Shown here: in pieces, positions 5,075-32,947 of the stretch
Numbering within the stretch: position 1 is the stretch's first letter
How the letters are laid out: each line of letters begins with the position of its first letter
The notes under the pieces: model-generated
The model's database searches: none
Told to the model about the DNA's origin: nothing
What the model saw: only the letters and a program-made list of their open reading frames with translations
Virus record (IMG/VR): IMGVR_UViG_3300042907_000764
Span: 1 to 35,500 of that record
Strand: one strand, 5' to 3'
Length of the DNA stretch: 35,500 nucleotides
From: a virus
Made by a program: the position numbers and the translations under genes

Positions 5075-5268
5075 TCCAGATCTTCTGCATCACGCTCTAT
5101 CAAATCCTCGTTTAGGTTGTCGTTCTCGGCGTTCAGGCGTTCGATCTCGGCTAGCAGATCCTGCAGCACCTTGCGCAGCTCAGGGTCTGGGTAATACTGG
5201 GCGCGGCTCTGGATTTCCAGTAACCGCGCCTTGCTCATGGCTGGTATTTCGTGCATGTCTAACCTCAT
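5068..5268 (-). CDS. Small coiled-coil protein
   Basis: 66 aa. After a short lead, residues 27-60 form a regular Leu/Ile heptad helix ('LRKVLQDLLAEIERLNAEND'), very acidic toward the end. The ATG overlaps the dnaN stop (ATGA, 5265-5268) and its stop overlaps the rusA start, so it is coupled on both sides. No family recognised. It may be an adaptor between the clamp and other replication proteins, but only position supports that. Confidence 0.6.
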   Translation of the reverse strand: MRLDMHEIPAMSKARLLEIQSRAQYYPDPELRKVLQDLLAEIERLNAENDNLNEDLIERDAEDLEW

Positions 5269-6341
5269 GTTTGTGGCATGATCAGTGTGTAAATCTTGCC
5301 TGCCGAAAGCGTCACCGGCCCATTGCCGCGGGTCTGGAAAATGACCTCTTCCTCGGTGTCAAATGCCTCCAATGCCTCAAGCAAAAACACCGGGTTTAAA
5401 CTGACATGCGCTTTGCCTTCGCCTGCAAAGAACGCTGTGATCTGGCTACTTCCAGCAGTCGCAGACCTCCCACCCAAAACCATGGCGGCACCACCCGGCC
5501 CGGTTGCGCCTAGTTGCACATCAAGGCGCAGGCTTTCCCGGTCAACCATCACCTGTGCCTGGCGCACCGCCCGCGCCAATTCGGCAGGCGCAAAGCCTCG
5601 CCATGCTGTGCCTCCATCCTTCGGGATAACAGCCTGATAATCAGGGTATTTCCCTTCGACCAGCAGGGTTTTCATTTTAAACCCATCGTTGGTAGATAAT
5701 GTCATGCCTCGCTTGGAAAACACTAGCCGCACAAGGCCGGCAAGATTTCCTGCCATGCGCCAGGCACTGGCCGGAACCACTGCCGAAATCACCCCAGTAA
5801 AGTCAGCCTGTTTGGTTACCTTGGCTAATCGCCGGCCATCGGTAGCCACAAAATCGAGCGTATGGTTTTGCCCAGATACAAACACGCCCATCATGGTGAA
5901 CCGCGCCAAATCCTTGGCCGCTGCGTAGCTGGTCGATGCGATTGCCCTGGCTAACTCCTCGCCCTCGATGCGCACCTCAACACCTTCTAGATCTTCGCAG
6001 CTTGGAAAGGCAGCGCAATCCTGCAGCGGTAACTCAAACCGAGCGCCACCAGCAGACACAGCCAGAACCTTTTCCTCTATGACAAACTCAACTTGGCCGC
6101 AGTCGCTGCGCTTCAGGATCTCAGCCAGCCTCGATGCGCTGACCAATACCTTAAACTCTTCTGTGGTGTCGCCCTCGATCAGGCAGCGCAGGTGTTGCTC
6201 CTGGTTCGTACACTCCACAGAAATGACCAAAGGCTTCACATCGATCAGCACACAGGTCAGCACTGGCCGGTTGACATCTCGGCCAACAGCCGGCATCACC
6301 CTGGTCAATGCACCCAGTAAATTGGCCCGATTAAATTTCAT
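5265..6341 (-). CDS. dnaN: DNA polymerase III beta-type sliding clamp
   Basis: 358 aa, the standard bacterial beta-clamp length of three tandem domains. Landmarks: 'SASRLAEILKR' in domain 1, 'FVATDGRRLAKV' in domain 2, 'KYPDYQAVIPKD' at the domain 2-3 junction, 'LNPVFLLEALEAF' in domain 3, and the C-terminal tail 'IYTLIMPQT'. It should form a ring on DNA and tether polymerase. I chose ATG 6341 because GGGAGGG lies just upstream and clamps usually begin 'MKF'. No phage polymerase or clamp loader is present, so it probably captures host polymerase III. Identification is firm; the recruitment model is inference. Confidence 0.93.
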   Translation of the reverse strand: MKFNRANLLGALTRVMPAVGRDVNRPVLTCVLIDVKPLVISVECTNQEQHLRCLIEGDTTEEFKVLVSASRLAEILKRSDCGQVEFVIEEKVLAVSAGGARFELPLQDCAAFPSCEDLEGVEVRIEGEELARAIASTSYAAAKDLARFTMMGVFVSGQNHTLDFVATDGRRLAKVTKQADFTGVISAVVPASAWRMAGNLAGLVRLVFSKRGMTLSTNDGFKMKTLLVEGKYPDYQAVIPKDGGTAWRGFAPAELARAVRQAQVMVDRESLRLDVQLGATGPGGAAMVLGGRSATAGSSQITAFFAGEGKAHVSLNPVFLLEALEAFDTEEEVIFQTRGNGPVTLSAGKIYTLIMPQT

Positions 6342-6342
6342 G

Positions 6343-6555
6343 CTAGCCCTCCCATTCAATCCCTAGGAACGCCTGCAGAACCCCCCGCAAACGCTCCACC
6401 TCGCCCACCAACCTCACCACTGCGGTGAGTGCCTCGTCTAGCTCGCCGATCTCATCAGTCGGTCGAGCCTTGATTTGCGCCAGCTCTTTAAGCCGGCCCG
6501 CTGCCCACGCCCTTATCTGGGCCAGATGTTCCGGGTCGTCGCTTTGGTATTTCAC
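6343..6555 (-). CDS. Small helical protein upstream of the clamp gene
   Basis: 70 aa, not recognised. Nearly all helical: 'IRAWAAGRLKELAQIKA' then 'ALTAVVRLVGEVERLRGVLQ', a likely coiled coil. The start is a GTG at 6555, about 68 bases inside the preceding gene in another frame. The stop lies one base before dnaN. It resembles the other tiny coiled-coil genes of this operon in style. Function unknown. Confidence 0.55.
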   Translation of the reverse strand: MKYQSDDPEHLAQIRAWAAGRLKELAQIKARPTDEIGELDEALTAVVRLVGEVERLRGVLQAFLGIEWEG

Positions 6556-6733: not shown

Positions 6734-6836
6734 TGCGCGCCTCCAGCGCCGCTAGTAGCTGCTTGATTACCGGGTGCCGGTCAGGACACAGCCCGTAGTG
6801 CCGTGCCAAATTACGTAGCGTTTCAACCTCACCCAT
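6672..6836 (-). CDS. 54-aa hypothetical miniprotein
   Basis: A short ORF that begins 'MGEVETLRNLARHYG', followed by 'LCPDRHPVIKQLLAALEAR', amphipathic helices like those of neighbouring small genes. It overlaps the sigma-factor stop by 8 bases and fills an otherwise empty gap of about 95 bases. No Shine-Dalgarno is obvious, so it may depend on coupling to the sigma gene. Its C-terminal third overlaps the next gene. Function unknown. Confidence 0.5.
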   Translation of the reverse strand: MGEVETLRNLARHYGLCPDRHPVIKQLLAALEARNGVRELRADSDAPDQRGESD

Positions 6837-7545
6837 TTTTTTGGGCCAACTTTAGACGTTTTAATCGTCCACGCTCGCCAGACAGCTTGCGCTCGTGCAG
6901 TAACTGGTAACTGCACTGGCAGCAGTAAAGATTTTTATTCAGGTTGTATTGCTGAGCCCCGCCACCGCAGCGGATGCATTTGGTTGTCTGAATCAATTCC
7001 CCTGGCATCGCGCTGGCACACTTGCGGCGTGCAATCGTCAAGTGCTGGCAGATGCGCTGGTGGCTGACGCCATAGTGGTCAGCGATTTCCCTAATGGTGT
7101 AATCCTTTGCCAAGCGCTGCAGAATATCAGCCTCTTGCGGTGTGCAAAATCCTAATGCCTGCTTGGTCACCATGGCGGCATCCAGCCCATTCCAGTGATG
7201 ATCTCGGCCTTGCATATCGAGCAAACTAACCTCTGCATCAAGCGAGTATTTAATGACTCGGCCCCTTTTCCCACGCTTGAAATAGTCGTTCAAATGCCCA
7301 CGCCTGCGGTATACGAAGTGATCTAACACCGTTGACAATTTGCCACGCGCCGGGTCGTGATACTGCACAGCCCGCACCAGCTGAACCATCACCTCGCTCT
7401 GCCAATCGTCCTGGTCCATGCCTAACGGTGGTCTATATTTTCGCGAGAGAAAATAGACCAGCCGCAAGTTTTCCTCGACCATCAACTTCTGCTCAGGGGT
7501 CAATGGCTCATTCGTTTTCTTCTGATTCGTCTGGTTCGCCTGCAT
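6829..7545 (-). CDS. Sigma-70-family factor with C-terminal zinc ribbon
   Basis: 238 aa. Residues 15-95 match sigma region 2: 'ENLRLVYFLSRKYRPP', then 'DDWQSEVMVQLVRAVQYHD' and 'FVYRRRGHLNDYF'. Residues about 131-175 match region 4, with 'TPQEADILQRLAKDYTIREI' and a helix-turn-helix 'DHYGVSHQRICQHL'. The end adds a zinc ribbon (CIRCG...YCCQC), unusual for a sigma factor. It should direct host RNA polymerase to phage promoters, perhaps late ones. I prefer ATG 7545; an ATG at 7587 adds 14 residues but overlaps the upstream gene more. It could also be an RNAP-binding transcription activator with a sigma-like fold. Confidence 0.8.
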   Translation of the reverse strand: MQANQTNQKKTNEPLTPEQKLMVEENLRLVYFLSRKYRPPLGMDQDDWQSEVMVQLVRAVQYHDPARGKLSTVLDHFVYRRRGHLNDYFKRGKRGRVIKYSLDAEVSLLDMQGRDHHWNGLDAAMVTKQALGFCTPQEADILQRLAKDYTIREIADHYGVSHQRICQHLTIARRKCASAMPGELIQTTKCIRCGGGAQQYNLNKNLYCCQCSYQLLHERKLSGERGRLKRLKLAQKNG

Positions 7546-7756
7546 CGTTACAATCCGCCTCCACCTCGGCCATTTCAGAACAAACATCCAAGTGAGTAGC
7601 TAATACACGAGCTTGCTGATGTGTCATAAGAAAGCAGGCAGTTTCCTGACCATCTCGCAACAATGTCATCAGCACCTGCCCTGGCTGCAGTGTGTCCACT
7701 GTGGTCACAACTTCTAAAAGTCCTTCGTCCACTTTCAAACTCATCCGCTCTGCCAT
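7508..7756 (-). CDS. Acidic hypothetical protein
   Basis: 82 aa, not recognised. Residues 1-55 look like a small alpha/beta domain ('GLLEVVTTVDTLQPGQVLMT', 'TACFLMTHQQARVLATHL'). The last 20 residues are mostly Glu/Asp and overlap the sigma gene in another frame. Its ribosome site GGGGAGGG lies in an 11-bp palindrome (TCCCCTGGGGA), so mRNA folding could affect translation. Directly before the sigma gene, it could be a partner of the sigma factor; this is positional only. Confidence 0.6.
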   Translation of the reverse strand: MAERMSLKVDEGLLEVVTTVDTLQPGQVLMTLLRDGQETACFLMTHQQARVLATHLDVCSEMAEVEADCNDAGEPDESEENE

Positions 7757-11484: not shown

Positions 11485-12109
11485 GGATTGCACCGAAAAA
11501 TGGCAGGCATTGCTGTGTTGGTTTAAAATTGGGATCGTTTAAGGTTCCTTTTGCCCATCGAGGCAGCAGCCATTCTTCATGCTTGTCTTGAAATCCAAGC
11601 ATTCGGACATGCTCAATAATCATGCCGCTTGGAAACTTTAGCTTCCCATTGTTATGTGTCCGCTTGTGGCATTCAGAGCAAAGCGTTTGAAGATCTCTCA
11701 TTTCCTCGCAGAAAAGGTTTTCATAGGTTAGGTGATGGCATTCAAGGCTAGCTTCTGTCTTGCAGGTTACGCAGCACCCGCCATCTTGTACCCTTCTTGC
11801 TTCCCTAGTCTTTCGCCAATGGTCCGACTTGTAGTAGGCATCCTGTATTTCCTTGGTCAACTTGAGCTTGGTAGGAATTTGGTCAATGTCATCTAATCGG
11901 TACGGGTTTTTAAAAGAGCCATCGCCAGAAATAATAAAGCCGTAACAATTGCGTAGCTGCTCGACAGTAGGCGCAAGCCTGCTACCCTTGCCGAGGATTC
12001 CGGTAACTTCACATTCGGTTTTTCTAAGTTTTTCTCCTTGGCGAAGGTGTGCCAATATAAGTTTTTGCGCTTCAATCCTTTCATGGTGTGCCCTAGCTTC
12101 CATGTTCAT
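11474..12109 (-). CDS. HNH endonuclease with helical N-terminus
   Basis: 211 aa. Residues about 112-155 carry 'CCVTCKTEASLECHHLTYEN' then 'LQTLCSECHKRTH', a full HNH/treble-clef zinc motif. The first 90 residues are helical. Its ATG overlaps the helicase-methyltransferase stop (ATGA). Placed between two DNA methyltransferase genes, it could be a nuclease working with them, or a mobile HNH that settled here. The overlap on both sides argues for a stable operon member. Confidence 0.78.
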   Translation of the reverse strand: MNMEARAHHERIEAQKLILAHLRQGEKLRKTECEVTGILGKGSRLAPTVEQLRNCYGFIISGDGSFKNPYRLDDIDQIPTKLKLTKEIQDAYYKSDHWRKTREARRVQDGGCCVTCKTEASLECHHLTYENLFCEEMRDLQTLCSECHKRTHNNGKLKFPSGMIIEHVRMLGFQDKHEEWLLPRWAKGTLNDPNFKPTQQCLPFFGAIHGY

Positions 12110-14328
12110 ACGTATTCCACCTCCGAAAATAGAGACTTGTTTTCAGATTTGGCGTTCTTAAGATTCAAAGATGCCTGCTTCCAATAGCTTTCCTTAAGCT
12201 CGCAACCAACAAACCGCCTACCCATCTGCAGAGAAATAAAGCCTTCAGAACCAATCCCAGCAAATGGTGATAGGACAACATCGCCAGGGTTGGACCACAT
12301 CCGCAGTGCTCGGCGAATCACCTCAAGCTGCAGTGGGCAAATGTGTCGCTCGTCTTCTTCTTCGCGGCAGCTTCTCCGCTGCAATGTGTCCGATGCGTTT
12401 ATGTCCATCCACACAGGCGAAGCAAACTTCTGCCATTCAGCAACAGGGAACTCTTCAGGCTTGTGACTGACTGGGTTGGCGTTCACGCCTGGCTTACGGC
12501 AGACAACCAGATAATCCGGTATGCCTTGCCGGCTAATGGTCGAGTCTTTTCTGAGTTGTTTCCACAGCAGGCCGATAGCTTTGGTTCTCTGCATTGCTGT
12601 GACTGGGTCTTTCCAGATGCAGACTTCGCTGTGATAAATCCAGCCTTCTTCAACATGAATGCGAATAAGCTCGCCACGGAAATCACGCAGGCCTATTTCC
12701 CCATGGTGCGCCTTGCTGCTTGGCAGCAGCATGCAATGAAACGCCGTCAACCTTCCCGGCTTGGTGACGCGGTAAAGATTGCGCACCAAGAATCGGTACT
12801 GCTCTAAAAACTCCTTATCTGTCTTGGTGTTTCCCATGTCACGAGGTGATGCGCTGTAAGTGTACAGGCTGGCAAATGGTGGAGAGTAAACCGAGAAATC
12901 AATAGAATTGCTAGCCATTTCTGCTGTCTCTTCGACGCAGTCGCCAAGCCTCATTTGCCATCCTTCGCCTTCCTCAACCTGTCGCTTGTGTTCCACCTGA
13001 ATGCTCCTCCCATCTTTAAGTTCATCCGTGACAAAAACCGATGCTTCCGCAATCATGCGGTCGGCCATTTCTTTAGCCTGCTTGTCTTTGCGCTCAATGT
13101 TTGCAACAACATTTCCCTCAATGTCAGCCGCCACAAACCACACATCGACATGCCTTTTCTGACCAAAGCGCCAGCACCGGCGGATGGCTTGGTAAACCTG
13201 TTCCCATGAATCATTTAGGCCGACAAAAACCATCTTGTGGCAGTGCTGCCAGTTAAGGCCAAAACCGCACATAGATGGTTTGCCAATAAGAATGCGGATT
13301 TCTCCGCTGGCAAACTCACGTAGGATGCGTTCCTTGGTTTCCTCGTTCTGGTCGCCGCGCAACTCAACCGAACCGGGAATAGCTTCCGCCAAGGCTTCGC
13401 TTTCGCTGTTGAGGTGGCACCAGATAACCCAATGTTCAGAGGTGTTAGACTGAGAAACAATTCCAGCGGCTTCAGTCACTCTCCTATCTACGGTTTTGCG
13501 CTTGGCAGCCAGCCTTTCCTGTAGGGTTGCTGCTTCTATTACGAACAGTTCGCCAGGCATGACGCTGTTGCTGGTAATGGTTGCCAGATGTTGGCGCAGT
13601 TCTGGTAGCTTGTGGCGTGAACCATCAAAACCAATATCTTCAGGTGACTGAAGCAGACATGCCCAGGAGCAGACCCACTTCCAGAACGCTGTGGTGGCGT
13701 GTCCCTTTAGCCGCCACTTCTGGGTTTCCCCGCCATCATGAACAAAATAGGTGGCCAGCATTTCCGCTCGGGTACAGACACCCAGAAACTCGGCATGGCT
13801 GGCAAGCTCCATCCAGTCATTAGGTGCTGGCGTTGCTGTGCTGGCTAGCCGGTAATCAATGCCAGCGGCAAACTCAATTAAATCTGCCTTAGTCGCACCA
13901 TCGTGGTGCTTGATAATGCTCGACTCATCCAGAACAAGGCCTGACCATTCCTCATCCCTAACCATGTGCAGCTTGGCGTAATTAGTCACATAAATGCCAG
14001 GTCCGCCAATGTCCTGAGACGTGCGGATCTTGTTGACCTTTATGCCAAACAGCTCGCCTTCACTTACAATCTGGTCCGACACCGCCAGCGGTGCCAAAAC
14101 TAAAACGCGCCACTTTGACCAGCGTTGAACATTCTCGGCCCACGCCAACTCCATTAGCGTTTTACCCAAGCCGGTACCAGCAAAGATGCATGCTCGCCCT
14201 TTTCGCAGTGCCCAACGGATGATGGCTTGCTGGTAGTCAAAAGCTTCGGAAGGCATAAAGCTTTCCAGAATCTGATTGAATGTGACCGCCCTATCCTTTG
14301 ATGCAATAAATTCCAAGTATTCAGACAT
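12106..14328 (-). CDS. SF2/SNF2-like helicase fused to DNA methyltransferase
   Basis: 740 aa. The N-terminal part is an SF2 ATPase: 'FAGTGLGKT' (Walker A, about residue 51), 'LVLDESS' (motif II, about 134), 'STATP' (motif III) and 'QAIRRCWRFGQKRHV' (motif VI, about 380). The C-terminal 270 residues are an amino-methyltransferase: 'GDCVEET', 'VYSPPF' (catalytic SPPF, about 482) and 'SPFAGIGSEG' (AdoMet site, order-swapped as in beta-class enzymes). It may track along DNA and methylate it, protecting phage DNA. I chose ATG 14328 with AAGGGGGAAG upstream over a TTG at 14376. Both halves look intact. Confidence 0.85.
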   Translation of the reverse strand: MSEYLEFIASKDRAVTFNQILESFMPSEAFDYQQAIIRWALRKGRACIFAGTGLGKTLMELAWAENVQRWSKWRVLVLAPLAVSDQIVSEGELFGIKVNKIRTSQDIGGPGIYVTNYAKLHMVRDEEWSGLVLDESSIIKHHDGATKADLIEFAAGIDYRLASTATPAPNDWMELASHAEFLGVCTRAEMLATYFVHDGGETQKWRLKGHATTAFWKWVCSWACLLQSPEDIGFDGSRHKLPELRQHLATITSNSVMPGELFVIEAATLQERLAAKRKTVDRRVTEAAGIVSQSNTSEHWVIWCHLNSESEALAEAIPGSVELRGDQNEETKERILREFASGEIRILIGKPSMCGFGLNWQHCHKMVFVGLNDSWEQVYQAIRRCWRFGQKRHVDVWFVAADIEGNVVANIERKDKQAKEMADRMIAEASVFVTDELKDGRSIQVEHKRQVEEGEGWQMRLGDCVEETAEMASNSIDFSVYSPPFASLYTYSASPRDMGNTKTDKEFLEQYRFLVRNLYRVTKPGRLTAFHCMLLPSSKAHHGEIGLRDFRGELIRIHVEEGWIYHSEVCIWKDPVTAMQRTKAIGLLWKQLRKDSTISRQGIPDYLVVCRKPGVNANPVSHKPEEFPVAEWQKFASPVWMDINASDTLQRRSCREEEDERHICPLQLEVIRRALRMWSNPGDVVLSPFAGIGSEGFISLQMGRRFVGCELKESYWKQASLNLKNAKSENKSLFSEVEYV

Positions 14329-14381
14329 GACTTCCCCCTTACCCCCAATGGGTTTGCGCTTTTTAAATTGTTTCAACCTTG

Positions 14382-16137: not shown

Positions 16138-16401
16138 TTATCTGCCCTCAGTCGTCAGAGTTTTCGGCTCGGTAACATGCGCCGCAGATGTCTGACCCGT
16201 ACCCATAGGCCCCAGATAAGATTGACCCGCAGCGCCAGCAGGCGCAGACCTGAACTTTTTGCGCTGGACTGTCACTGCTGGTGGTGCCACTATCCTGACC
16301 TTGCTTTTGGTCGGTGACGATTTCTCTATGTTCACCCAAATTTCAACTCCTCGATGTGTGATTTTAAATGGTTCGCCTGTTGTCACTGTGATGCAGAGCA
16401 T
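16138..16401 (-). CDS. CsrA-like RNA-binding regulator, possibly frameshifted to a zinc ribbon
   Basis: The first 50 of 87 residues align by eye to CsrA: 'MLCITVTTGEPFKI' at the start and 'KVRIVAPPAVTVQRKKF' at residues 34-50 match CsrA's GE-I and V-R-APP-V-V-R core. CsrA binds GGA motifs in mRNA leaders. A perfect AGGAGG precedes ATG 16401 and contains such a motif, so autoregulation is possible. After residue 49 this frame becomes low-complexity, while the -1 frame encodes a zinc ribbon (see 16148-16261). The protein may end by frameshift, or an indel may have broken the gene. Distant CsrA similarity is seen; function is inferred. Confidence 0.6.
   Translation of the reverse strand: MLCITVTTGEPFKITHRGVEIWVNIEKSSPTKSKVRIVAPPAVTVQRKKFRSAPAGAAGQSYLGPMGTGQTSAAHVTEPKTLTTEGR
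16148..16261 (-). other. Zinc-ribbon coding in the -1 frame of the CsrA-like gene
   Basis: From a CAAAAAG run (16255-16261), the -1 frame reads 'VQVCACWRCG' then 'YGYGSDICGACYRAENSDD' and a stop. Two CxxC pairs 18 residues apart look like a genuine zinc ribbon. No good start codon lies in this frame nearby (a TTG at 16339 is the only one open). A -1 slip at AAA-AAG would join it to the CsrA-like domain, giving about 82 residues. A sequencing or true indel is the alternative. Confidence 0.45.
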
Positions 16402-16555: not shown

Positions 16556-16783
16556 TTAGCGCCCCTCTAGCTGGGCAACTCGCTCGCTCAGCGTTTCAAC
16601 CTGGCTGATTAGCTTGCGGACATATGCGCTCATTTGGCGCTGTGTCAGATTTGAGCGTTCGCTTTTAAGCGCAGCGGCGTATTTCCTTTTGCCCGCTTGG
16701 CGTTGCCACTTCCAGTAGCGGACGCGGCGCTCGGAAACGGACTCGCCTGCTATTTCTAGAAAAATATCAGAACATATAGACAT
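16556..16783 (-). CDS. First gene of the early operon, small basic protein
   Basis: 75 aa. It has a basic, aromatic middle ('RRVRYWKWQRQAGKRKYAAA') and a coiled-coil C-terminus ('LISQVETLSERVAQLEGR'). Basic charge plus a dimerising helix would suit a nucleic-acid-binding regulator, and it is the gene nearest the control region. No helix-turn-helix is obvious. ATG 16783 follows GGTGGTG. It is a candidate for the missing switch regulator, on position alone. Confidence 0.55.
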   Translation of the reverse strand: MSICSDIFLEIAGESVSERRVRYWKWQRQAGKRKYAAALKSERSNLTQRQMSAYVRKLISQVETLSERVAQLEGR

Positions 16784-16800
16784 AGTTACACCACCAGAAA

Positions 16801-16823
16801 CCTCGAGAAAACGAGGTCTTTTT
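16801..16823 (+). terminator. Plus-strand intrinsic terminator, weak
   Basis: CCTCG-agaaaa-CGAGG followed by TCTTTTT: a 5-bp stem and U-tract on the plus strand. On the minus strand the hairpin lies in the leader of the early operon, just before its first ribosome site, where it could act in mRNA folding. No plus-strand gene is known to its left. Confidence 0.55.
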
Positions 16824-16875
16824 AGCTTTTGCGGCTGGTAGGCTTAGGCTGCTAGATGATTTGGCGCAGCTAAAA

Positions 16876-16905
16876 TTGACGGTTTGGTGCAATCGCATAT
16901 AGAAT
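16876..16905 (+). promoter_or_regulatory. Sigma-70-type promoter, plus strand
   Basis: TTGACG (-35, five of six matches) and TAGAAT (-10, five of six) separated by 18 bp; an overlapping TATAGA at 16-bp spacing is the alternative. It points rightward, against every protein gene in the genome. Transcription would start near 16912. Confidence 0.6.
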
Positions 16906-16911
16906 GACGAT

Positions 16912-16991
16912 GCCACCTAGCGGTGCGCAAGCTGAGGCCTCGGCCTTGGCGAGCTGGCAGGAGAGTCTCACTTCTCTTGCCAGCTTTTTTT
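16912..16991 (+). ncRNA. Predicted small RNA between promoter and terminator
   Basis: The promoter at 16876-16905 and the terminator at 16952-16991 define a transcript of about 80 nt. It can fold CACC-tagc-GGTG, then AGGCC-tc-GGCCT, then the long terminator hairpin, so most of it is base-paired. Its 3' end touches the excisionase stop codon and would be antisense to that mRNA's end. A 42-codon ORF from 16910 runs through the hairpin and past the terminator, so a protein product is unlikely. Possible roles: antisense control of xis, titration of the CsrA-like protein (one GGA in a stem), or a lysogeny switch. Confidence 0.5.
16952..16991 (+). terminator. Strong plus-strand intrinsic terminator
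   Basis: AGCTGGCA pairs with TGCCAGCT and the stem continues through GGAGAG/CTTCTC with two G-U pairs, about 14 bp, followed by seven Ts. On the minus strand no T-run follows, so it stops plus-strand transcripts. It overlaps the excisionase stop codon. Confidence 0.8.
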
Positions 16992-17199
16992 ATCGCCCTG
17001 GCTTTGACCGCTTGCCTTGGCTGGAGTTTTTCCAGTGAGCTTCTAGGTCTTCCGGATGCCAAATTCTTTTGGCTCCCAGCTTGGTGCCCTCTGGAAATTC
17101 ACCAGCCGAAATCAGCCTCGAAAGTGTTCGCCGCGAAATGCCAGTCACCTGGCAAATGTCATCAGCAGAATACAGCCGAGGCAAATCGGCGTGAGTCAA
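16990..17199 (-). CDS. xis: Excisionase / AlpA-type DNA-binding protein
   Basis: 69 aa. 'RLYSADDICQVTGISRRTLS' followed by 'RLISAGEFPEGTKLGAKRIW' is the MerR-like winged helix-turn-helix of phage excisionases and AlpA regulators. The C-terminus is short and basic. The start is a TTG at 17199, supported by GGGAGGGA upstream; no ATG or GTG fits. It follows the integrase by 128 bp in the same direction. It probably binds attachment arms and steers integrase to excision. A role as transcription regulator of the adjacent control region is also possible. Confidence 0.8.
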   Translation of the reverse strand: MTHADLPRLYSADDICQVTGISRRTLSRLISAGEFPEGTKLGAKRIWHPEDLEAHWKNSSQGKRSKPGR

Positions 17200-17327: not shown

Positions 17328-18476
17328 TTACCCAAATACTTTGTCAATTTCACCTCGGCTTCTAATAGGGCTGAGGTGCGCATAGTGCTTAGACAGTACT
17401 CGCAGAGTTTTCCAACCACCCATGCGCTGGACGAGTAAGACGGAAACTCCTTTTTCCAGCAGTTCTGTAGTGCCACCATGGCGCAGGCTGTGAACCACGG
17501 CTATGCCTCGCTCTGTCTCATGCTCTATGCCAGAACTCTTCAAATCACGCCTAAACATGTGGTGGATGTTTAATCCACTGATACTGTGAAATAGTGGCAC
17601 ATTAGCCGGGCATTCATCAATCAACTGGCGCAATGGTTCCACTAGCCGTTTAGGCACTGGCACCTGTTGGGTTATTTTTGTTTTGGCGTGTTGAGCTCGT
17701 AACAGAATAGACGAATCGTCTTCGCCTAAATGCACATCAGACTTAGTCAGACTCAGCAGCGCACCGCGCCTGGCTAATGTCGCAAAGGCCAGAGCGTAAA
17801 ACAAACCGCGCGGCCAAGGCGAGTTGGCTTGCAGCAAATCCACTTCGGCTCTGGTTAGTGGTCGGCGAACATATTTGGCGACATCCAATATTTTCGGAAA
17901 CTCTGGCACTTGGCGTATCAGGTTGCCGGCCAGCAGCCATTTCATAAAACCTTTGAGCTGGATGACTTTTTGGATCTTGCTGCCATTGCTGAGAGGCAGA
18001 CCATCTAGCCATTTCTCTAATTGCTTGGCGGTCAATTTTTTAACCCCGGCAAGGGAATCAATTTTCAGTTGCGCCAGCGCTCCGGCCAGCCGTGCCTGCG
18101 CCTCACGCAGGTATACATCCGTACATGTCCTTGCTTTGAGAGCCCAATATCTTGCAGTCAGGGCAGAAAATTTTTCGGTGGTGACGGTCGTAGCGCTGGA
18201 AATCCCCACGGAAATGCGTTCCTGCTCGGTTCTGAGCTTGGCCAATAGCATCTCAGCTGCAAGTTTGTCCCGGCATAATTTGACCAACTTGGTGCTGCCG
18301 TCCGCCATCCGCAGGCTGGCATACCACTCAGGCCGAACAACCTTAGCGCGGCCCGTAGGTGTGAGGTCGCACCAGACATCCTTGCCCCAGACGGTTAACA
18401 TCGCCTGAGCAACGCCCTTGCTTACCCGCCTTTTTGCGTCTGGTGGCACGTCTCTAGTATCGTGTTTGCGTTTCAT
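17328..18476 (-). CDS. int: Tyrosine-recombinase integrase
   Basis: 382 aa. The C-terminal catalytic domain has 'FATLARRGALLSL' (Arg of box I in a divergent setting), 'HSLRHGGTTELLEKG' (H-x-x-R), 'GGWK' (Trp in place of the second His) and 'LSKHYAHL' (nucleophile Tyr). The N-terminal half has an arm-type part and a core-binding helical domain ('LEKWLDGLPLSNGSKIQKVI'). It should integrate the phage genome at a host attachment site. ATG 18476 has AGGAATAGG upstream. TGTGCCT repeats straddle its start and the facing HNH end, so attP probably lies in 18496-18658. Confidence 0.9.
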   Translation of the reverse strand: MKRKHDTRDVPPDAKRRVSKGVAQAMLTVWGKDVWCDLTPTGRAKVVRPEWYASLRMADGSTKLVKLCRDKLAAEMLLAKLRTEQERISVGISSATTVTTEKFSALTARYWALKARTCTDVYLREAQARLAGALAQLKIDSLAGVKKLTAKQLEKWLDGLPLSNGSKIQKVIQLKGFMKWLLAGNLIRQVPEFPKILDVAKYVRRPLTRAEVDLLQANSPWPRGLFYALAFATLARRGALLSLTKSDVHLGEDDSSILLRAQHAKTKITQQVPVPKRLVEPLRQLIDECPANVPLFHSISGLNIHHMFRRDLKSSGIEHETERGIAVVHSLRHGGTTELLEKGVSVLLVQRMGGWKTLRVLSKHYAHLSPIRSRGEIDKVFG

Positions 18477-18495
18477 GTGCCTATTCCTGTGCCTA
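18476..18495. repeat. Paired TGTGCCTA repeats, integrase side
   Basis: TGTGCCTA at 18476-18483 and 18488-18495, 12 bp apart, about one helical turn. A matching pair lies at 18659-18678 with the same spacing. The pairs bracket the intergenic region next to int, as arm-type integrase sites do. Confidence 0.55.
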
Positions 18496-18507
18496 CTGTA
18501 TCGGCTC

Positions 18508-18537
18508 AGTATGACCCAGCTTGTCCACAGATTGCAA
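18508..18537 (-). promoter_or_regulatory. Possible integrase promoter
   Basis: On the minus strand TTGCAA (18537-18532) and CATACT (18513-18508) are 18 bp apart, each four of six matches to the sigma-70 consensus. It is positioned to drive int, about 30 bp from its start. Weak match. Confidence 0.4.
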
Positions 18538-18658
18538 GCATTGTCTCGGTTTTTCTAGTGAATTTTTTGCACGACCTTAATAACTAGGTGGTTTGAACAA
18601 TACAGCAACTATGCGGTACCTTGGTAAATTGCTGGGGTTTATTGCGGTTTTTTTGCAG

Positions 18659-18678
18659 TGTGCCTAGATGTGTGCCTG
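18659..18678. repeat. Paired TGTGCCT repeats, HNH side
   Basis: TGTGCCTA at 18659-18666 and TGTGCCTG at 18671-18678, again 12 bp apart and in the same orientation as the other pair. They overlap the last codons of the HNH gene. The 187-bp gap between the pairs (18477-18663) has no gene, is rich in A/T, and is the best place for attP. Confidence 0.55.
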
Positions 18679-29664: not shown

Positions 29665-31629
29665 TTAGGCTTGAACCATGTGCTTGATCGCACCGCTGGC
29701 CAAGATCTTGCTGTCAGTTCTGGCCCATGCCGTGAATCCAACTGCACCGTTAGCGGCATAGAGCTCGTCGAGCCTTTGGATGCGGATATTAGCCACATCG
29801 CGGATCAGGAACTTGTTCATGGCACCGAACACCATCGTCTTGAGGCCAGTGGTGATGGCGCTGTTCAGGCTGTTGCTGATTACCAGCGGGAAGCCATGAA
29901 TGCGAATCTCACCAGGGATGCGGTAAGACTCCTGGAACAATGGCTGGCCGTTGCTGTCCACCAGCTTGCGCACATACAGCCAAACGCTGTCGTGCATCAC
30001 CAGAGCGCAAGAAGGATCTTGGCGATAGGCGATGTCGACGCTGTGAATCAGGTCGAGGATTTCGGCTGATGTGATAGCGGTTGCGCTGGCAGTGGTCTTG
30101 CCTGCGGTGCTGGCTGCAATGCCTGTTGGTTGGCTGGAGCCTGTGCCGGTTGCGACATAGTCAGCCATGATTCGGCCAAGACGCTCGCCGAGCAGGTCGC
30201 CGATATAGGTTTCGAGGTCAACAGCGTTGTCGTCCAAGAGCTGCCAAGATACCTTGAGCGCCTTGCTACTCATGGTGTAGGCACCAAGAGAGATCTGGCC
30301 GAATGAGGTATCGGCTACAGTGAGTGCGCCATCTTCGGCCAACAGCACGCCTTTGGTGCCGGTGTCGTCGTTGGTTGGCATGGTCATCGGCTCGCCAGAC
30401 TCGGTGCGCAGCACCTGAGCGTATTCGCGCAGCGGGTTGAAATAAAGCAGCGCCTTTTCGATGCGCTCGACCAGGACAGTCGGCACGTTAAAACCGCCGA
30501 GGCTGCCGGTGCTAATCACCTGTGTGGCTGTGCCGCGCTCTTCCAACTCACGCCTGCTGCGAGGCGCGGTGTCAAACAAGCGAACATTGAAATCGCGGCT
30601 ACGCAGGCTAACACCAACGCGCTCAGCGGCGGCTCGGTGCGCATCAGTCGCGCGGCCATTGCCTTCTAGGAACCAGCCACGCATGGCCAGCTTGCGATCA
30701 TTGTGGTAGTTTTTATCTGCAACATCCTTCACGATGTAAGGCGTGTTCAATGGCATGGGTTTGCTCCTGCGGGTGGTCTGGGATTCCAACTTTTCCAATA
30801 GGCTGGCGCAACGCGCGCCAACCAAATCCAATTTCCTTTCAGCCTCGGCAGCCTTGTCAGCGCCGGCCATCTCCTCTTCTGGCACAAAGTTCATGGCCTC
30901 CTCGATGGCGGCCACCCGCGCATCGAGATCGGCAACGCCTTGGACTAGTGCGTCCATGGCGGCTTGCTCTTCTGGAGTGAGCGCGCGAATCTGCTCAATC
31001 AGCGCGGCTCGCTCGTCAATCAACTTTTTCAATTCGGCAACCTTTTCCATGTGAATCTCCTTTGAGTCAGAAAATAAAACACTGGCAGCACGATAGCCGT
31101 GCGATGCAAGCCATCGCGCGCGCCTGATTTCAAACTCCACTTGTCGCAGGCCGCGCAAGGCAACAGTGGTATCCGGGTAAGCAGGTATCGAAACAACCGA
31201 TACCTCATGTAGATCTATGCTGTTTAGCGTTCTCAGTGCGTTGCCGTATTCGTCCTTGTCCCAAGTGTCGCCACCGGGTGGCACAAGAAAGCCGAATGAC
31301 ATTTGGTTCACCACGCCAGAGCGCACCAACTGGCGCAGGTCGTCGGCGTAGCTCACACCTTCAGGCAAATCTATTTCAACTCGCAGGCCGCGCTTGTCGC
31401 TGGAAACCTTGAGAGAACCGTTGGTTGTCCTGGCTAATGGCTGGCTGGTGTTGTGGTCCCAAAGCGCTCTAATGTCGGCGTTGTTTTCGAGTGACTTGTC
31501 GAATGCGCCAGGTGTAATCTTTTCCCTGAATCCGCCTAAGTCTTCGCTCAATGCAGGCGCGTAAACTGCAGCATAACCGACCAGCTTGCCGCCTTCCTGC
31601 TCAAGTTTGCTAGTTCGTTTTTCGAGCAT
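29665..31629 (-). CDS. Prohead protease fused to HK97-type major capsid protein
   Basis: 654 aa in one frame. Residues 1-165 are an S78-type prohead protease: 'VGYAAVYAPALSEDLGGFRE', 'LWDHN' (His59), 'NQMSFGF' (Ser111) and 'HEVSVVSIPAYP' (Glu142). Residues 194-290 are an acidic coiled coil, like the capsid delta/scaffold domain. From about 300 the HK97 fold follows, with 'GGFNVPTVLVERIEKAL' and 'DRA-type' loop regions up to 'GFTAWARTDSKIL'. Elsewhere protease and capsid are usually separate. An internal ATG (31050) with a perfect ribosome site probably makes capsid protein alone. Start ATG 31629 has GAGGAGG. Confidence 0.88.
   Translation of the reverse strand: MLEKRTSKLEQEGGKLVGYAAVYAPALSEDLGGFREKITPGAFDKSLENNADIRALWDHNTSQPLARTTNGSLKVSSDKRGLRVEIDLPEGVSYADDLRQLVRSGVVNQMSFGFLVPPGGDTWDKDEYGNALRTLNSIDLHEVSVVSIPAYPDTTVALRGLRQVEFEIRRARWLASHGYRAASVLFSDSKEIHMEKVAELKKLIDERAALIEQIRALTPEEQAAMDALVQGVADLDARVAAIEEAMNFVPEEEMAGADKAAEAERKLDLVGARCASLLEKLESQTTRRSKPMPLNTPYIVKDVADKNYHNDRKLAMRGWFLEGNGRATDAHRAAAERVGVSLRSRDFNVRLFDTAPRSRRELEERGTATQVISTGSLGGFNVPTVLVERIEKALLYFNPLREYAQVLRTESGEPMTMPTNDDTGTKGVLLAEDGALTVADTSFGQISLGAYTMSSKALKVSWQLLDDNAVDLETYIGDLLGERLGRIMADYVATGTGSSQPTGIAASTAGKTTASATAITSAEILDLIHSVDIAYRQDPSCALVMHDSVWLYVRKLVDSNGQPLFQESYRIPGEIRIHGFPLVISNSLNSAITTGLKTMVFGAMNKFLIRDVANIRIQRLDELYAANGAVGFTAWARTDSKILASGAIKHMVQA
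30754..30768 (-). promoter_or_regulatory. Possible second internal start at the capsid body
   Basis: AGGAGCAAACCCATG places an ATG (30756) in frame at 'MPLNTPYIVK', at the end of the coiled-coil domain, near where the mature capsid chain would begin. It would give 363 residues. The match may be accidental; the spacing of eight bases is acceptable. Confidence 0.4.
31048..31063 (-). promoter_or_regulatory. Internal ribosome site for capsid protein alone
   Basis: Minus strand reads AAAGGAGATTCACATG, an ideal Shine-Dalgarno and spacing, inside the open protease-capsid frame at codon 194. Translation here would give 461 residues starting 'MEKVAELKK', exactly where the delta domain begins. This would supply many capsid subunits per protease fusion. 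Confidence 0.75.
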
Positions 31630-32947
31630 TGCCGCCTCCTCGTTTGCGTGTTGGTGTGTCCCCGACACTGGCTGGGTTAGGGCTAGCGCTGGGCGAAAGC
31701 GCGGGGACCAGTGCCGGGGTGGCTGATGGCGCTGAAGGGCCGTTTGGCGCACTCAGCGGTTGCATGTTGAGCGGTTGCAGATACTGGTCGCCACCCTCGA
31801 TTGGCGGCAGGTTTTCACGCTCGCGTATCTCGTTGGTTGAGAGAATGCCCCAGTTCTTCGCAACCGCATAGACTTCATAACGGGTCTTAATATCCGCTCT
31901 TAACAGGCCTTCGATTAGATGCTCAAAGTAGTATTCTCGGCGCTCGACTGTGTTCAGCAGTTTTATCTGCAGTTCTTGCTCCAGGCGAATTAGCCAGGGG
32001 CGAAGTGTCTCGGTGTAAAACGCTTGGTTTTCAGCCTCGATGCTTGAGTAGGTCTGGCCGGTGTTGTCCCGTAGTTTGCTCGATGGACAGTTAAACCAAC
32101 GAGCCACCTCGGCAACTTGGAACTGCCGAGTCTGCAAAAACTGCGCATCGTCTGGCGGCACACCAAGCGCCTGCCATTTCATGCCTTCCTCAAGGATTGC
32201 AATTCGGTGAGCATTGTCGAGGCCGCTGTGCAGGCGCTCATAGTCGCCACGCAAACGCTGCCGTGCGTCGTCGCTCAATCTGCCTGGGTGTTCCAACACA
32301 CCAGATGGCCTAGCTCCAGTGCCAAACAGCTTGGCACCAAACTTCTCGGCAGCCAATGTCAAGCCTAAGCTCTCACGAGCAGTGCGAACCACGCTGTAGC
32401 CCATCACGCCATCACCACCGAGGCCGCGTAAATGAATGACATTGGCACCGGCAAGAGTGACATGGCCGCCTTGCGGTTGGCGCACTTTGTAGTAGATGTT
32501 GCCGTCCACTTCGCGGTATGGCTCTACGCGCTCTGGTGCGAGTAGCCACAGCGCCACAGGCACGCCATCGCTAGCTCTGCGCTCAATCTCGGCGTAGCCG
32601 TTGCCGTAGGTCAGAGCGTGCGCAAACAGGCTTTCACGAAACACCAGCGAACCGATGCCAGGGCAAGGCTCGTCGTGCAGCAAACCATAGAGCGGGTGCT
32701 CGCTGGCTCGGGTGCGGGTGGCTCCGTCTCGGCGGTAGGTGATTAGCGGTAGGCTGGCAGCGCCTTCAGAAATCACACGCACTGCAGCCCACACGGTGGC
32801 GCAACTGAGTGCGCTTGCCTCATCGACACGCACTCCCGACTCGGTGTTCCTACCGCCTAACAAATCTATCAAGGCAGGATTATTGAGCACCGCAGCGGGT
32901 GATATGCGCTTCTGCAATCCGAATATGCGCTGAATGAAATTAGCCAT
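31610..32947 (-). CDS. Portal protein (HK97 family)
   Basis: 445 aa from ATG 32947. 'SALSCATVWAAVRVISEGAA' and 'LPLITYRRDG' open the wing; 'VFRESLFAHALTYGNGYAEI', 'HLRGLGGDGVMGYSVV' and 'VAEVARWFNCPSSKLRDN' are classic HK97 portal signatures; 'NWGILSTNEIRERENLPPIE' is near the end. The C-terminal tail is Pro/Ser/Ala low-complexity. It forms the dodecameric DNA channel. It overlaps the protease start by 20 bases. No strong ribosome site is seen at this ATG or at the one four codons upstream. Confidence 0.9.
   Translation of the reverse strand: MANFIQRIFGLQKRISPAAVLNNPALIDLLGGRNTESGVRVDEASALSCATVWAAVRVISEGAASLPLITYRRDGATRTRASEHPLYGLLHDEPCPGIGSLVFRESLFAHALTYGNGYAEIERRASDGVPVALWLLAPERVEPYREVDGNIYYKVRQPQGGHVTLAGANVIHLRGLGGDGVMGYSVVRTARESLGLTLAAEKFGAKLFGTGARPSGVLEHPGRLSDDARQRLRGDYERLHSGLDNAHRIAILEEGMKWQALGVPPDDAQFLQTRQFQVAEVARWFNCPSSKLRDNTGQTYSSIEAENQAFYTETLRPWLIRLEQELQIKLLNTVERREYYFEHLIEGLLRADIKTRYEVYAVAKNWGILSTNEIRERENLPPIEGGDQYLQPLNMQPLSAPNGPSAPSATPALVPALSPSASPNPASVGDTPTRKRGGGNARKTN

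Follow-up and report, generated by a model that had tools for sequence, protein, structure and literature searches.

A conserved candidate small-RNA gene at the xis-early gene junction in a small group of uncultured phages

The locus and its neighbours

The stretch analysed here, referred to as the window, is a virus record of 35.5 kb whose two ends share a short direct repeat. In the gap between a xis-like gene and the first early gene (Table 1), the plus strand carries the window's best sigma-70-like promoter and then its longest terminator-like hairpin, with 45 bp between them, which together frame an RNA of about 80 nt. A previous sequence-only reading of this DNA had proposed a lone plus-strand small RNA here, and its promoter is found exactly as claimed, being the sole 10/12 match in the window. 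Promoter-like sites as a class are not commoner than chance (11 in the window versus 13.7 in shuffles); the credibility of this one thus derives from its conservation, not from its score. The hairpin of the putative terminator (16951-16986) comprises 15 pairs, a loop of 6 and a T-run (16985-16991) that overlaps the stop codon of xis (TTA, 16990-16992), hence the 3' end of the RNA abuts that codon, as had been read. The high foldability attributed to the transcript was likewise borne out: the folding energy computed for the 82-nt RNA is -47.2 kcal/mol (z = -5.8), and 0 of 200 shuffles folded equally well.

Table 1. Features of the xis-early junction and the integrase region in the window
Feature	Position	Strand	Remarks
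First early gene past the RNA locus	16556..16783	-	conserved 75-aa protein, predicted single long helix
Conserved non-coding stretch	16784..16875		5' of the promoter; short hairpin 16800-16817 and CTAGA element
Sigma-70-like promoter of the small RNA	16876..16905	+	TTGACG-18 bp-TAGAAT, 10/12 matches; -35 and spacer kept in L002-L005
Candidate small RNA, ~80 nt	16911..16991	+	start predicted ~6-7 nt past the -10; 3' end in the T-run
Hairpin 1	16911..16929	+	CACC/GGTG stem; loop 4-7 nt, variable among relatives
Hairpin 2	16931..16950	+	8 bp, CUCG loop; covarying
Hairpin 3 and T-run, predicted intrinsic terminator	16951..16991	+	stem letters largely replaced in L003-L005, pairing retained
xis-like gene	16990..17199	-	HTH_17/AlpA; excisionase and transcriptional regulator; likely target transcript
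Tyrosine integrase (int)	17328..18476	-	
Likely attP region	18476..18677		paired TGTGCCT repeats, 183 bp apart; arrangement kept in relatives

An Rfam search of the window and its relatives returned nothing above the gathering score, the best sub-threshold match being RcsR1 (18.1 bits versus 60). No open reading frame within the RNA is conserved among the relatives, and a leaderless small ORF was discarded, for the reading frames differ from one relative to another. Within the non-coding stretch, the short hairpin immediately precedes the first early gene, and its window copy is followed by T-rich sequence on the plus strand; a hairpin occupies the equivalent place in the relatives L003 (~7676-7697) and L005.

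Pfam scans covering most early proteins agree with the statement that no repressor is recognised. The product of the first early gene was considered for this role and rejected, its structure model being one long helix without a recognisable DNA-binding fold. A CsrA-family gene is conserved in the window (16138-16401, minus strand; below the Pfam cut-off) and in three relatives, where it scores above that cut-off (L003 8659-8829, L005 8300-8470, L012 8167-8352). Elsewhere on the minus strand of the window, an early gene at 6829-7587 has weak Sigma70_r2 and Sigma70_r4 matches and may encode a phage sigma factor, 5265-6359 encodes a DNA polymerase III beta clamp, 12106-14376 an SNF2/DEAD-type helicase fused to an N6/N4 DNA methylase (a fusion present in many phages), and at 29665-31752 a single reading frame joins prohead protease and major capsid protein.

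Between int and the gene preceding it, paired repeats 174-183 bp apart occur in the window (18476-18677) and in four relatives (L002 5800-6001, L003 5798-5991, L005 5782-5999, L012 5798-5998). Their letters vary by clade (TGTGCCT, TTGCAC, TGGCACG, TCACAAGA) and their spacing is kept. They are probably arm-type integrase sites around attP, lying across int from the RNA locus.

Conservation, fold and strand of the RNA

An integrase search of IMG/VR yielded a near clade, comprising L002 (96% identical), L003 and L004 (58%) and L005 (54%). Conservation of promoter and hairpin in relatives had been set beforehand as a check, and both are kept in all four. Directly behind the xis stop, each of them has TTGACG, an 18-bp spacer, TANAAT (variants TA[GCA]AAT), five bases, TGCCACCT and then three hairpins, namely the CACC/GGTG hairpin, the 8-bp hairpin with its CUCG loop and the terminator at the xis stop. 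The predicted RNA measures 80-81 nt in the near clade and 80-83 nt over all relatives. The TGCCACCT and GGCCTCGG blocks are invariant in the five near-clade members despite a largely replaced terminator stem, whose letters in L003 and L005 differ widely from those of the window while its pairing is complete. Between the window and L002, identity amounts to 97% in the 92 bp upstream of the promoter, 91% in the RNA, 90% in the promoter, 88% in int and 80% in the int-xis gap; the differences within the RNA fall in loops or preserve pairs, with the exception of one deleted base at the foot of the terminator stem.

Integrase searches also identified a distant clade (L012, L013 and L014; 36-38% identical). 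L012 and L014 carry TTGATA-18-TATACT, five bases and TGCCA; hairpins follow, the terminator again lies at the xis stop, and the predicted RNA measures 83 nt; the copy in L013 is cut off by the contig end. A covariance model built on the near clade found no match in L012-L014 up to E = 10, and the CUCG loop is absent there; agreement between the two clades is limited to layout, promoter spacing and the 5' TGCCA. Common descent of the two sets of RNAs is accordingly suggested by place and layout, not by a model score. The distant clade has in addition an ORF on the RNA strand, upstream of it (L012:7688-7894, minus strand), which by eye looks like a ribbon-helix-helix protein and matched no family in Pfam or PHROG; neither such an ORF nor a remnant of it was found in the near clade.

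Searching for more relatives with patterns of the integrase, xis, the early protein and the RNA brought up no contig beyond these seven. In a bacterial genome collection the sole match was a 52-residue integrase segment, with no prophage, and among annotated phages there was no DNA match, integrase matches being weak.

Another feature of these loci is that the terminator loops of L003 (CTGTAA, 7508-7539) and L005 (TTACAG, 7502-7533) seem inverted between the same arms, and those of L012 (TTAGCG) and L014 (CGTCAA) are nearly so, which fits template switching within a palindrome.

Hairpins 2 and 3 together contain 21 pairs; following these through the near clade, which has four distinct sequences, gave 84 cells. 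All 84 pair, with double changes at 9 of the 21 pairs; since the four sequences form two groups, most of these double changes reflect one divergence, and the support, though genuine, comes from few independent events. When the partner was shifted by one column as a control, pairing fell to about half, and RNAalifold, unaided, predicted the identical 21 pairs. Fourteen cells hold G-U pairs, which would break on the minus strand, where 70 of 84 cells pair versus 84 of 84 on the plus strand; selection therefore appears to act on a plus-strand RNA. Conservation, compensatory changes and strand-specific G-U pairs thus uphold the lone plus-strand RNA gene proposed from the window. Comparison establishes the predicted promoter and the RNA together with its fold, strand and position, and a conserved, undescribed small-RNA gene in a small group of uncultured phages is well supported, its expression and function being what I infer.

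Readings of the RNA's function

The reading given an even chance of being right is that of a cis-encoded antisense RNA against the xis/early-operon mRNA, which would lower its expression and favour prophage maintenance. Transcription of the RNA would begin within the xis-early gap, at a promoter of its own, and proceed against the minus-strand transcript as far as the strong terminator on the xis stop; the product would fold into three hairpins. It would then pair with the xis/early-operon mRNA just 3' of the xis stop codon, leading to RNase III-type cleavage and to less xis and/or early-gene expression, so that the prophage would stay in the chromosome. The xis-early gap was scanned in the window, L003 and L005, and no minus-strand sigma-70-like promoter (8/12 or better) was seen in any of them. 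Upstream of xis, L003 and L005 have TTGANT-17-TAGATT, and the window shows no clear promoter at the same threshold. The empty gap and the promoter-like site upstream of xis indicate that the early genes are probably read through from xis, in which case an mRNA crossing the RNA locus is likely. Expression of the RNA, its pairing partner, cleavage and an effect on lysogeny are all conditional here, as is the direction of that effect, presumed to be towards lysogeny, its sign depending on which gene is the target. The earlier proposal of antisense control of xis survives in this form as the best reading, tempered by an overlap with xis that amounts to the stop codon only.

Small antisense RNAs of this general kind are known. 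RNAI and CopA, which control plasmid copy number, are tightly folded cis-antisense RNAs with their own promoter and terminator; the RNA described here would share these traits, yet no replication-primer or initiator-leader target was identified for it. The c4 RNA of P1/P7 and the CI RNA of P4 are small structured antisense RNAs controlling immunity and are processed from the strand of their own target, whereas this RNA would be read from the other strand, between a promoter and a terminator of its own. The sar RNA of phage P22 acts on translation of ant mRNA, at the ant start region. Like sar, a 68-69-nt antisense RNA of the immunity region (PMC12197685), the present RNA would be a small phage antisense RNA; unlike sar, it sits behind the stop codon of xis.

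The closest parallel drawn is with lambda OOP, an RNA of 77 nt (PMC12197685). Like OOP, the predicted RNA is short and runs from its own promoter against an early transcript, the promoter in lambda lying between the early regulator and the replication genes, and each RNA stops where the regulator gene upstream has its 3' end. OOP itself is further characterised by a LexA-controlled promoter and by RNase III-dependent loss of its target mRNA. The OOP-like traits legible here are a promoter and an intrinsic terminator opposite the genes, and a non-coding RNA within 70-90 nt. The OOP promoter also requires upstream sequence (PMC5869508), and here the 92 bp upstream are highly conserved. On the other hand, no sequence relation was seen, the neighbour is xis and not cII, and the overlap with the upstream regulator is confined to the stop codon, whereas OOP partly overlaps the 3' coding part of cII. 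Nonetheless, the cleavage reported to depend on OOP lies 12 nt beyond the end of the cII coding sequence (PMC5869508), hence overlap with a coding region is not required. OOP opposes cII and thereby favours lysis (PMC12197685).

Possible, though on balance unlikely, is a structured RNA acting in trans or through a protein, in which the three-hairpin fold and the CUCG loop would bind a protein, whether of the phage or of its host, or else a distant RNA. Such a partner could account for the two sequence blocks being fixed while the terminator stem was largely replaced and for the covariation of hairpin 2, of which termination has no need; selection for plus-strand pairing and the presence of the CUCG loop in all five near-clade members could suit it equally well. 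Yet the distant clade lacks the loop, and few unpaired bases are available for a seed. Moreover, the target prediction against phage mRNAs advised by the sequence-only reading gave complementarity at chance level (4 ten-mers versus 2.6 in shuffles); this search used 10-mers, unconstrained duplex energies being uninformative. More doubtful is an insulator, whereby plus-strand transcription and the terminator would separate int-xis from the early operon through transcriptional interference and the RNA would be a by-product. The convergent geometry and a strong terminator right at the xis stop in every relative are what such a device would look like; hairpins 1 and 2, however, are needless for interference and conserved all the same, the second of them with plus-strand covariation. 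Harder still to credit is an extension of the antisense reading in which the RNA would be the main lysogeny switch, alone restraining xis and the early operon as a repressor-less, RNA-only immunity unit; its setting would be a near clade lacking the ribbon-helix-helix-like ORF found next to the RNA in the distant clade. Some role in a lysogeny switch is plausible.

The remaining readings are very improbable. Inverted arms around a variable spacer, with int nearby, resemble the core of a tyrosine-recombinase site, and the hairpin was therefore considered as the core of attP. It does not lie between the arm-type-like repeats, which in the window and four relatives sit beyond int in the usual attP layout and so make it unlikely to be attP; moreover, every hairpin copy is flanked by a T-run, always on the same side, and is preceded by a promoter ~40 bp upstream. 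Slighter still are the chances of a decoy for CsrA, an idea of the sequence-only reading that did not hold up. CsrA-family genes do lie a few genes downstream in these phages, but a CsrB-type sponge is expected to present several GGA motifs in loops, whereas ANGGA occurs in no member and GGA only in L012 and, once and within a stem, in the window, with none in L002, L003 or L005. A chance promoter and hairpin without RNA function is as improbable as the decoy: promoter-like sites are indeed no commoner than in shuffles, but position, spacing and compensatory changes are conserved in the relatives.

To sum up, control of lysogeny by small antisense RNAs is known in only a few model phages, and the RNA described here represents an undescribed conserved family, situated where the excision genes meet the early genes, for which covariation suffices to define fold and strand. 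If the antisense reading is true, RNA control of excision would extend to a new group of phages without a recognisable repressor.
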